DNA of 64,000 nt from Ktedonobacteraceae bacterium. Lineage in GTDB: Bacteria; Chloroflexota; Ktedonobacteria; Ktedonobacterales; Ktedonobacteraceae. Below are positions 39,990 to 42,823 of the stretch, piece after piece. The stretch spans positions 62,001 to 126,000 of the forward strand of contig DASRBN010000027.1 of the NCBI GenBank assembly GCA_035653615.1, written 5' to 3'. Position 1 is the stretch's first letter, and the number at the start of each line of letters is the position of its first letter. The notes beneath the pieces were generated by a model. That model searched no databases and had not been told where the DNA came from. It saw only the letters and a program-made list of their open reading frames with translations. The translations under genes and the position numbers were made by a program.

Positions 39990-40946
39990 ATGAACTACCG
40001 CAAATTGGGCCGTACAGGATTAAAAGTGTCGGCGCTCTGCCTGGGAACCATGCAATGGGGCTGGACGGCGAATGAACAGACAGCATTTGCCGTTATGGAT
40101 GCCTTCGTAGAGCATGGAGGCAACTTCCTGGACACGGCGGATTATTACTCGCGCTGGATACCCGGACATAAGGGCGGTGAATCCGAGGAAATTATCGGCC
40201 ATTGGATGCAATCGCGGCGCAATCGAGAGAGCATTATCGTGGCAACAAAGGTGCGCCAGCCAATGGGACCAGGCCCCAACGACCAGGGCCTTTCCCGCAA
40301 GCATATTTTGGAGGCGGTCGAAGCATCGCTGATGCGCCTGCAAACCGATTATATCGACCTCTACCAGATGCACGCCTACGATGCTGACACGCCCATTGAC
40401 GAAACGCTGCAGGCGCTTGATGACCTGCGGCGAGCAGGCAAAGTGCGCTATGTTGGTGCTTCGAACTACCCGGCGTGGCGGCTCGTAGAAGCCCTCTGGA
40501 GCGCCGGTGTCCATGCTACCGTGCGCTTTGACTCGCTCGAACCTCATTACAACCTCGTTCATCGCCAGGAGTTCGAGCAAGACCTCAAAACCATCTGCGA
40601 GCGGTACCAGATCGGCGTTATCCCCTACAGTCCCCTGGCCAGGGGCTTCCTCACTGGCAAGTACAGGCGCGGCGAGACTACCGCAAGCACATATGCTGAG
40701 ACCGTCGCGAAACGCTATGACCACGATAGCGCCTGGCGCATCCTGGAAGTTGTGAGGGAAATCGCACAAGAGACAAATAGCACTCCTGCTGCCGTCTCAC
40801 TGGCCTGGCTGCTGGCACAATCCGTCGTTACCGCGCCCATTGTAGGAGCAAATTCCGTGGAACAGCTGGAACAAAACCTGGCAGCAGTCGAGCTAACGCT
40901 TACGGAGGAGCAATTGTTGCGGCTCGATAAGGTATCGAGCTTGTAG
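39990..40946 (+). CDS. Aldo/keto reductase
   Basis: 318 residues, TIM-barrel NADPH-dependent reductase. Catalytic tetrad: Asp in [11 protein letters not shown], Tyr in the same motif, Lys in [11 protein letters not shown], and His in LYQMHAYD. The NADPH pocket is [17 protein letters not shown] and [17 protein letters not shown]. It is of the AKR11/YajO type, which reduces aldehydes, ketones or sugar derivatives; the substrate is unknown. AGAGGAAAC precedes the ATG. The stop codon lies inside a perfect 20-base-arm palindrome, so the terminator hairpin also encodes the last residues. Confidence 0.92.
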
Positions 40947-40978
40947 GGACAGCGGCTGGCCGCTGTCCCTACAAGCTC
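40937..40978. terminator. Perfect palindrome at the aldo/keto reductase stop (likely terminator)
   Basis: GAGCTTGTAGGGACAGCGGC (40937-40956), two bases, then its exact complement 40959-40978. The stop codon TAG (40944-40946) is inside the left arm. It belongs to the TAGGGACAG repeat family and probably ends the transcript. Confidence 0.7.
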
Positions 40979-41005: not shown

Positions 41006-41218
41006 TTATTTTCTGCCACGCCGGGTAATCTCATGCATCTCTTCGATGCTTTGACAATGCATAAGTTCGTGGCCGAGACCAGCCTTGATCCAGGCAGAGA
41101 TAGCCTGGGCATGCCGTGTATCGTTCCTGGTTCCATTTGGTTGCGGACCGCGTAAAAGGAAAGGCAGGTAGAGCCGCCTCAACCTCACTCCACCAGTACC
41201 GGTCACTATGCTCAACAT
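41006..41218 (-). CDS. Small protein, unknown (weak)
   Basis: 70 residues, basic N-terminal half (RLRRLYLPFLLRGPQPNGTR) and an Ile/His/Met-rich C-terminal helix (ISAWIKAGLGHELMHC). It stands alone between the aldo/keto reductase and the divergent RHH gene, with no good ribosome binding site, and could be random. The helix with HELMHC might be a fragment of a larger protein. I do not recognise a family. Low confidence. Confidence 0.28.
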   Translation of the reverse strand: MLSIVTGTGGVRLRRLYLPFLLRGPQPNGTRNDTRHAQAISAWIKAGLGHELMHCQSIEEMHEITRRGRK

Positions 41219-41268
41219 AGCTTACTTCTTTTTATACAGCGTGGCAAGAATCATCAGCCTATCACCTC

Positions 41269-41298
41269 TTGACATCGTGGTATATACCATGGTATTCT
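41269..41298 (+). promoter_or_regulatory. Promoter with overlapping palindromic operators
   Basis: TTGACA at 41269-41274 and TATTCT at 41293-41298, 18 bases apart. Between them lie two overlapping 12-base perfect palindromes, TGGTATATACCA (41278-41289) and ATACCATGGTAT (41284-41295). A further ATACC half-site occurs at 41321. The following gene begins with a ribbon-helix-helix-like segment, so it probably represses itself here. Confidence 0.7.
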
Positions 41299-41357
41299 TT
41301 GAGCGAATCTACCACCGTAAATACCATCGTAATATCGAAGAGAGACAGGAGTAAGCT

Positions 41358-41948
41358 ATGCCATCCAGTAAAGACCGCCAGCGCGTCGAAATTCCGCTTT
41401 ATTTCTATGAGCAACTGGTGAAGATCGCTGAGACGGAGGATCGCACAATCACCAGTGTCCTCAACCAGCTGCTATTTCAAGCGTTGCAGGACTACCGGCC
41501 GACGTGGATACCCGCTAAACATCTCAACCGCTTCAATGGGCATGCCCAGCATGTCCTCTCGCTCGCCCGCGAGGAGGCCCTGTCTTTCAATCACAACTAT
41601 ATCGGGACGGAGCACCTGTTATCAGGCCTGTTGCGCGAGCAAGGGAGCCTTGCAGCCCTGGCGCTGGAAAAATTGGGTGTCACTCTTGATTCCGTGCGTG
41701 CAGCTGTTGAAGAGAAAATTGGGCGTGGAGACCAGCCTGTTGAGGAAGAGATAGACTACGTGCCCCGAGCTCGCAAGGTACTCGCACTGGCGATGGACGA
41801 AGCAGAGCGGCAGGGAAGTGGCTATGTCCGTACCGAGCATATCCTGCTCGGAATTGTGCGCGATGGCGGCGGTGTCGGCGCGGATATTCTCGATACGCTT
41901 GGGGTTTTGGGAAAGGTACGCGCCCAGGTTTTCGAGCTGCTCGGCTAG
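41358..41948 (+). CDS. Ribbon-helix-helix-like domain fused to a Clp N-terminal domain
   Basis: 196 residues. Residues 1-50 (QRVEIPLYFYEQLVKIAETED, then TITSVLNQLLFQALQDY) fit a MetJ/CopG-type ribbon-helix-helix DNA-binding fold. Residues about 60-195 hold the two repeats of a Clp N domain: HVLSLAREEALSFNHNYIGTEHLLSGLL and VLALAMDEAERQGSGYVRTEHILLGIV (key words GTEHLL and RTEHIL). No AAA+ module follows, so it cannot be a Clp ATPase by itself. Clp-N domains bind substrates or adaptors, so this may be a regulator that senses proteotoxic stress or antagonises ClpC. AGGAG precedes the ATG by 7 bases. An operator-like palindrome lies in its promoter. Confidence 0.85.
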   Translation: MPSSKDRQRVEIPLYFYEQLVKIAETEDRTITSVLNQLLFQALQDYRPTWIPAKHLNRFNGHAQHVLSLAREEALSFNHNYIGTEHLLSGLLREQGSLAALALEKLGVTLDSVRAAVEEKIGRGDQPVEEEIDYVPRARKVLALAMDEAERQGSGYVRTEHILLGIVRDGGGVGADILDTLGVLGKVRAQVFELLG

Positions 41949-42028: not shown

Positions 42029-42823
42029 ATGCGTGATTCCAGTGAAGTTTGGACCGGCAAAGCCAGCAGCTACGACCGGGCGCGCCCGGCACCGCCACCA
42101 GTTTTGCTCAATCTGCTGACGCAATTGATTCAGGCACCGCATCCCGCTCTGGTGGTGGATTTAGGCAGTGGTACCGGACTCTCTACCGCGATCTGGGGTG
42201 AGCGGGCCGGGCGGGTGATTGGGATCGAACCCAATGCCGGCATGCGAAAAGAGGCGCAGCGCAAACTCGAGGACTATCCCTACGCGGCACGTATCGAGTA
42301 TCGAGAGGGAGTTGCTCAACAGACCGGCCTGCCTGATGGGTGCGCTGACATTGTCACGGCTGCCCAATCGTTCCACTGGATGGAGCCGGCTGCGACGCTG
42401 GCCGAGATTGCTCGAATTCTGCGCCCCGGAGGACTCTTTGCGGCGTATGACTATGATTCACCGCCGGCAATTCATTGGGAGCTTGATCGCCTCGCTCAGG
42501 AGGAAAACTTGCGCTTCGTGAAGCTTATCCAGGAGCGCGGACTGGCGCACACTCTCAAAATCTGGCCGGAGAACAAATCTCTTGCCCCTCTACGCGAGTG
42601 CGGCCATTTTCGCTTCACCCGCGAGGTCTTGCTACATTCTATCGAGCAGGGAGACGCGGCGCGGTTTCTTGAGATGATGCAGAGCAGTGCGTTCAGCGGC
42701 CAGTTCCAGTTTTCCGAACAAGAAATCGGTTTTGATCGCCTCAGACAGGCCGCCCTCGAATATATCGGCTCCGAACCCATTCCCTGGTATTGGAGCTACC
42801 GGGTTCGGATTGGGATCAAGTAG
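42029..42823 (+). CDS. Class I SAM-dependent methyltransferase
   Basis: 264 residues with a Rossmann methyltransferase core: motif I VVDLGSGTGLSTAIWGE, the acidic strand end VIGIEPNAGMRKEA, motif with GLPDGCADIVTAAQSFHWM, and EIARILRPGGLFAAYDYDS. It is of the UbiE/YcgJ-like small-molecule group; the acceptor is unknown. AGGAG lies 8 bases before the ATG. It starts 80 bases after the RHH-Clp gene, with a TAGGGACAGG repeat remnant between, and converges on the P450 gene with a 65-base gap. Confidence 0.88.
   Translation: MRDSSEVWTGKASSYDRARPAPPPVLLNLLTQLIQAPHPALVVDLGSGTGLSTAIWGERAGRVIGIEPNAGMRKEAQRKLEDYPYAARIEYREGVAQQTGLPDGCADIVTAAQSFHWMEPAATLAEIARILRPGGLFAAYDYDSPPAIHWELDRLAQEENLRFVKLIQERGLAHTLKIWPENKSLAPLRECGHFRFTREVLLHSIEQGDAARFLEMMQSSAFSGQFQFSEQEIGFDRLRQAALEYIGSEPIPWYWSYRVRIGIK

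Follow-up and report, generated by a model that had tools for sequence, protein, structure and literature searches.

Mycobacterial ClpC2 (Rv2667) is the closest described precedent for the locus analysed here, and its self-repression and release by cyclomarin are documented by pull-down, reporter and gel-shift experiments (PMC10030653), with further coverage of the protein in PMC12913811. As presented in the first of these reports, the N-terminal domain of ClpC2 is a four-helix bundle while contact with DNA is placed in the Clp_N domain, the operator CGTCAAC-n5-GTTGACG lies 1-2 nt before the open reading frame, and cyclomarin is contacted by F96, F172 and E181 (PMC10030653). Within the open-licence PMC literature, we found no Clp_N self-repressing antibiotic sensor described besides ClpC2, and no description of a fusion between an RHH (MetJ/Arc/CopG) segment and Clp_N, the papers that treat RHH together with ClpC being mostly concerned with toxin-antitoxin systems.

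The window, by which we mean the whole stretch of DNA analysed, comprises 64,000 nt of the Ktedonobacteraceae bacterium assembly GCA_035653615.1 (contig DASRBN010000027.1, positions 62,001-126,000, forward strand). It encodes a 196-aa protein with two Clp_N repeats (Pfam, E 4e-29), in which Pfam detects no ATPase domain over the full 196 residues. An earlier sequence-only reading had described this product as an RHH-like segment joined to a double Clp_N without ATPase, a description borne out by the Pfam match and by profile comparison. The features of the locus are as follows:

41269-41274, plus strand: -35 box TTGACA, from the sequence, with TTGA unchanged in all 14 self operators
41279-41294, no strand assigned: operator array 1, GGTA-nn-TACC-nn-GGTA, half-boxes 6 bp apart, containing both palindromes (sequence and ortholog alignment)
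41293-41298, plus strand: -10 box TATTCT, from the sequence, with TATAAT at the same place in locus L093
41310-41331, no strand assigned: operator array 2, TACC-nn-CGTA-nn-TACC-nn-CGTA, half-boxes 6 bp apart (ortholog alignment)
41347-41351, plus strand: ribosome binding site AGGAG, located by eye
41358-41948, plus strand: gene of the RHH-Clp_N protein, 196 aa
41370-41501, plus strand: RHH-like segment, residues 5-48, a coil or strand region followed by two helices (profiles and models)
41565-41723, plus strand: Clp_N repeat 1 (Pfam)
41790-41930, plus strand: Clp_N repeat 2 (Pfam)
42029-42823, plus strand: class I SAM-dependent methyltransferase, the second gene of a conserved pair (Pfam Methyltransf_11, E 4.9e-21)

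Repeated sequences were also observed around these genes. The gene start region (AGGAGTAAGCTATG, window 41347-41360) is mirrored on the other strand 117 nt upstream, at 41216-41229, where it precedes a 70-aa open reading frame (41006-41218, minus strand) that, among the loci examined, is present only in copies of the RHH-Clp_N locus. A dispersed repeat with the core TAGGGACAG occurs in the window at 40944-40977, 41972, 20973, 44951 and 47658; one inverted pair lies behind an aldo/keto reductase gene, and one copy lies between the repressor and methyltransferase genes.

The -35 and -10 boxes are separated by a spacer of 18 nt, between which the sequence-only reading had placed two overlapping 12-base palindromes. 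Both are exact (TGGTATATACCA at 41278-41289 and ATACCATGGTAT at 41284-41295), the second extending 3 nt into the -10 box. The pair alone is unremarkable, since the window holds 21 palindromic 12-mers against 21.2 expected and an overlapping pair arose in 14 of 100 Markov-1 simulated windows; its significance comes from conservation among the orthologs. There, perfect palindromy does not hold up as a conserved feature, several orthologs breaking the palindromes, and the alignment instead reveals a unit of GGTA or TACC half-boxes (or relaxed forms of them) repeated at a 6-bp step in alternating orientation, of which the window's perfect palindromes are, on this alignment, one realisation. The earlier reading had found the region of array 1 but overlooked both array 2, which spans about +5 to +27 on the inferred assumption that transcription starts 7 nt past the -10 box, and the methyltransferase partner.

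Conservation of this promoter was quantified across 12 of the 14 genomes that carry the gene (66 pairs, the near relatives L092 and L093 being left out). Mean pairwise identity reaches 0.78 over the 26 nt running from the -35 box through array 1 and 0.72 over the 22 nt of array 2, against 0.27 in the 60 nt just upstream, which places the promoter, as judged by alignment, among the best-conserved features of the RHH-Clp_N locus. Counted from the first base of the -35 box, the first box of array 1 begins at an offset of 10 nt in 15 of 15 operators, including a second site in genome G035, and the distance between the arrays differs by 6 nt among operators. Co-variation of the box pattern with residues of the strand was considered and dropped as too weak.

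A search for the fusion in other genomes, which had been suggested along with the sequence-only reading, recovered full-length orthologs (residues 1-196, 77-88% identity); of 47 class genomes, 14 carry one, counting the source genome. Among the best 80 of 537 relatives, the named orthologs include those of Ktedonobacter racemifer, Dictyobacter arantiisoli and Ktedonosporobacter rubrisoli, and the six full-length named loci within these best 80 of 537 are identical in their upstream sequence to six of the 14 ortholog genomes. When 400 genomes of the phylum were searched with the RHH part, 15 gave a match, namely the 14 and a shortened relative from a different family (L196:1498-1998, plus strand). 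In this shortened protein the RHH strand and first helix lead directly into Clp_N, and TACCACC...AAATAC...GTA stands immediately 5' of its start codon. Two further candidates for RHH fusions, L035 and L074 (matched from residues 6 and 28), proved to be ordinary ClpC proteins with N-terminal extensions, and a single-repeat paralog in G012 (L176 779-1198) was rejected as an operator-controlled gene, the operator being absent before it.

The two-array operator pattern is found in precisely the 14 of 47 genomes that have the gene and in 0 of the 33 that lack it, with 1 match in the reversed control. Beyond the 14 self sites, the pattern matched at G035:C1:1174194 and at G013:C11, the latter dismissed as chance because a sequence-model search did not confirm it. 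This model, built from the 14 operators and run over the 47 genomes, gave strong sites beyond the self sites at G019:C454 (E 6.7e-13) and G035:C1:1174183 (E 3.8e-12). Its weak matches were discarded, one (G045:C116) lying inside a coding frame and the other (G021:C26) being an extended perfect palindrome of a different type; this palindrome (L211:390-452) has GGTATTTAC in common with the operator. Single array-1 motifs elsewhere in the source genome were likewise set aside as carrying no signal (20 with at most one mismatch, versus 48 in the reversed control), and exact array-1 matches number 15 across the 14 genomes, self sites included. The earlier proposal that the protein represses itself through sites in its promoter therefore gains strong support from comparative genomics, in the contrast between 0.78 or 0.72 and 0.27 and in the confinement of the operator to the same 14 of 47 genomes, and we regard autorepression at both arrays as very likely.

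The nature of the presumptive DNA-binding segment was assessed by profiles and by structure prediction. In Pfam searches of N-termini, RHH_5 matched 12 of 13 orthologs at E<=1 (best 9e-6) and Arc matched 11 of 13; the one N-terminus in which RHH_5 was absent at this threshold is the window's own copy, of which a 51-aa fragment has a weak Arc match (E 0.22). In three proteins with RHH_5 listed, its scores were 17.7-22.7 against a Pfam cut-off of 26. These matches are complemented by an hhalign comparison, with a query profile built from 13 of the 14 orthologs, against curated RHH_1 segments of the same class (14 of 26 places in the class genomes, 20 having been considered and near-identical ones removed), which gave 91.5% probability over 45 gapless columns, compared with 0.1-0.3% for five Clp_N windows taken as controls. 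Structure prediction of the N-terminus, proposed earlier as a check, was less informative: AlphaFold monomers gave pLDDT 37-57 by block for residues 1-55 in the full-length model and pTM 0.34 for the domain alone, with two helices (at about 15-24 and 29-43, or 14-24 and 31-44, depending on the model), no strand, and no RHH match in a structure search of these low-confidence models. The strand of RHH proteins arises solely in the dimer. The RHH assignment is backed by profiles (91.5% in hhalign, RHH_5 in 12 of 13) and lacks a structure match in the monomer; profile comparison gives good grounds for reading residues ~1-50 as an RHH fold.

The genes placed under these operators provide insight into what the protein may control. 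The methyltransferase gene lies directly downstream of the RHH-Clp_N gene in 13 of 14 ortholog loci; in the fourteenth (G019), its first 13 codons remain, followed by a stop and then by a TnpB/IS605-type open reading frame, and no copy of the enzyme was found in the G019 genome at E<=1e-40. The transposase-like frame occupies L095:2-1464 (minus strand), directly past the remnant. Homologs of the methyltransferase at E<=1e-40 occur in 23 of 47 genomes, 13 with an intact repressor gene and 10 without, which shows that the enzyme can occur independently of the repressor, and it matches broad methyltransferase families only. In G021 the situation is inverted, residues 146-196 being all that was found of the RHH-Clp_N frame, beside an intact methyltransferase.

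Both extra operators sit directly before FAD monooxygenase genes (L210 2664-4232 in G019 and L177 5316-6884 in G035) whose products are orthologous and 77% identical, which indicates retention of this operator ahead of a shared second target gene in two genera. This link concerns 2 of the 14 ortholog genomes; the source genome has no such monooxygenase gene at E<=1e-100, and 10 of 10 more distant homologs have no match to the operator model. Both enzymes belong to PRK06184 (546 and 569 bits, NCBIfam), and their lower-scoring NCBIfam neighbours include rifampin monooxygenase, below its cut-off, and aklavinone hydroxylase, which is no proof of an antibiotic substrate. By eye, the monooxygenase region of G019 (L210:1-7001) also contains two methyltransferases, a P450, and IclR-like and TetR-like regulators.

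These same enzymes bear on a metabolic alternative, in which the protein would sense a compound that the methyltransferase consumes or makes in ordinary metabolism, with no toxin involved. Such feedback would suit the retention of the operon pair, the enzyme's broad family matches and its occurrence apart from the repressor, but it fits poorly with the patchy presence of the gene across the class and with a second target in PRK06184, whose profile neighbours include rifampin monooxygenase below its cut-off; we consider it unlikely. With a methyltransferase and FAD monooxygenases as targets, a response to a small molecule or toxin is better indicated than the ClpC or misfolded-protein signal proposed in the sequence-only reading.

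The Clp_N half was examined as the candidate sensor. Residues 57-196 find their best match among solved structures in ClpC N-domains (profile E 3.9e-44), with agreement in fold (Foldseek E 1.9e-11 to 8ibo), and the same genome encodes a host ClpC whose N-domain is 55% identical to residues 56-195. For comparison of the groove, 81 ClpC-type proteins were used (81 of 91 loci examined, from related bacteria, collected by similarity to the RHH-Clp_N protein). At the three positions aligned with cyclomarin contacts, the repressors carry L56 (14 of 14, versus F in 81 of 81 ClpC-type proteins), Y134 (14 of 14, versus L in 81 of 81) and S143 (13 of 14, with A143 in the other, versus E in 81 of 81). 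Because three known contacts are changed, cyclomarin itself is an unlikely ligand, and since L rather than F stands at the second contact in the related ClpC proteins, cyclomarin may also fail to target ClpC in these hosts. The groove changes follow a single consistent pattern, suggesting, at the level of sequence, one conserved ligand other than cyclomarin.

Other residues aligned with known ClpC sites are retained, and they bear on a proteostasis switch, the view taken in the sequence-only reading, in which Clp_N would bind unfolded or tagged proteins or MecA-like adaptors and so titrate the repressor off DNA under stress. E85 and E160, aligned with glutamates that have a role in phosphoarginine binding by B. 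subtilis ClpC (PMC12583610), are kept in all 14 repressors and throughout the ClpC-type set, and a rise of about twofold in ClpC2 mRNA on heat shock is reported (PMC10030653). Glutamates of this kind are, however, general ClpC residues and do not discriminate between readings, the regulon consists of a methyltransferase and FAD monooxygenases with chaperones and proteases absent, and we judge a switch of this kind improbable. A search for arginine kinase families matched none of the 47 genomes, but neither did the control set, so that this result speaks neither for nor against such a switch. A protease-coupled switch, with Clp_N docking the repressor to ClpC or its adaptors for degradation (or delivery of a partner) under stress, is very unlikely: RHH antitoxins are commonly cleared by Clp or Lon proteases and a host ClpC with a 55% identical N-domain is at hand, but no toxin-like gene is adjacent, as a type II toxin-antitoxin system would have it, the conserved neighbour being the Methyltransf_11 enzyme, and Clp_N is conserved at full length with its own fixed residues, exceeding the needs of a degradation tag.

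We therefore favour a one-component autorepressor of a small enzyme regulon with the ClpC N-domain groove as its sensor, an explanation that, as a whole, we hold to be reasonably likely. By analogy with the self-repression of ClpC2 and its release by cyclomarin, we infer a mechanism for the computed features of the locus (domain anatomy, conserved operator, one-to-one gene match, operon partner, second target and groove changes) in which the RHH segment would dimerise and its dimers would bind the GGTA/TACC half-boxes of both arrays. The bound arrays would cover the -35/-10 spacer and the transcript start, blocking RNA polymerase and shutting off the operon of rhh-clpN and the methyltransferase gene, and in at least two genera also an FAD monooxygenase gene that lies elsewhere. 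A ligand fitting the groove of the ClpC-type N-domain would loosen DNA binding; the likeliest candidates would be a natural product, peptide or peptide-like toxin for which ClpC is another target, or else a compound on which the induced enzymes act. Upon release, more RHH-Clp_N would be made, which could also soak up the ligand as a sponge, and enzymes modifying small molecules would be produced alongside the repressor. RHH-Clp_N thus probably switches off its own and the neighbouring enzyme genes until a signal arrives; as for that signal, a small-molecule or peptide toxin is plausible, though our confidence in it stops a little short of even.

Ktedonobacteria are described as soil bacteria, actinomycete-like and rich in biosynthetic clusters (PMC6497799), a lifestyle that fits a setting of chemical warfare and proves nothing. 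ClpC1 is an antibiotic target. Should the favoured explanation be true, the locus would represent a second, differently built version of the ClpC2 logic and would make Clp_N a reusable sensor module. It would also imply ClpC-directed natural products in soil that are yet to be discovered, the promoter and protein would form a ready reporter for screening ClpC-directed compounds, and the induced enzymes would become candidates for resistance determinants.

Clp_N repeats recur in further arrangements. A 1237-aa protein encoded in the source genome (L237:957-4670, plus strand, contig 4) combines a CHAT protease-like part with Clp_N and a ClpB/ClpC-type AAA+ pair, an unusual composition that is possibly defence-related. 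Stand-alone proteins consisting largely of several Clp_N repeats, as seen by eye at L236:584-1591 (plus strand), L238:388-2085 (minus strand) and L239:76-1572 (minus strand), are numerous in Ktedonobacteria.

Set beside known systems, the RHH-Clp_N protein combines elements of several. It shares with the ClpC/Hsp100 N-terminal domain a double helical repeat, by sequence and by fold, but has no AAA+ domains and has several groove positions fixed otherwise. With RHH (MetJ/Arc/CopG) repressors it shares an N-terminal 45 residues that match RHH_1 members of the same class without gaps and short tandem half-boxes over the promoter; it differs in its box step of 6 bp and in its fusion to a ClpC-type N-domain, with a toxin neither fused nor adjacent. 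A further fusion is encoded in its own genome (L234:962-1636, minus strand, contig 39), where HTH_17 (E 4.1e-13) is followed by two Clp_N repeats without ATPase. The two proteins have in common a DNA-binding-type domain and the ATPase-free Clp_N pair, an HTH_17-type helix-turn-helix standing where RHH-Clp_N has its RHH segment, and the existence of both suggests that Clp_N may serve more generally as a sensor module.

The likeness to ClpC2 extends to the Clp_N pair without ATPase, an extra N-terminal dimer domain (dimerisation being proposed for RHH-Clp_N), conserved pseudo-palindromic sites over the -35/-10 region of the own gene, autorepression (demonstrated for ClpC2 and proposed here) and a groove homologous to the cyclomarin site. 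The differences are nevertheless defining: in place of the four-helix N-domain there is an RHH-like segment of ~50 residues, the ClpC2 operator is absent at 41269-41358, where the GGTA/TACC arrays are found, and the two phenylalanines and the E181-type glutamate give way to L56, Y134 and S143/A143. With N-domain, operator and contact residues all failing, the protein is not a ClpC2, and its putative regulon also takes in a methyltransferase. We raise, tentatively and with some doubt, the broader idea that one-component transcription factors have on more than one occasion taken up the ClpC N-domain as their ligand-sensing part, the RHH version with its re-shaped groove sensing a ClpC-directed natural product and inducing tailoring enzymes (methyltransferase and FAD monooxygenase) along with itself as a sponge, in convergence with ClpC2.
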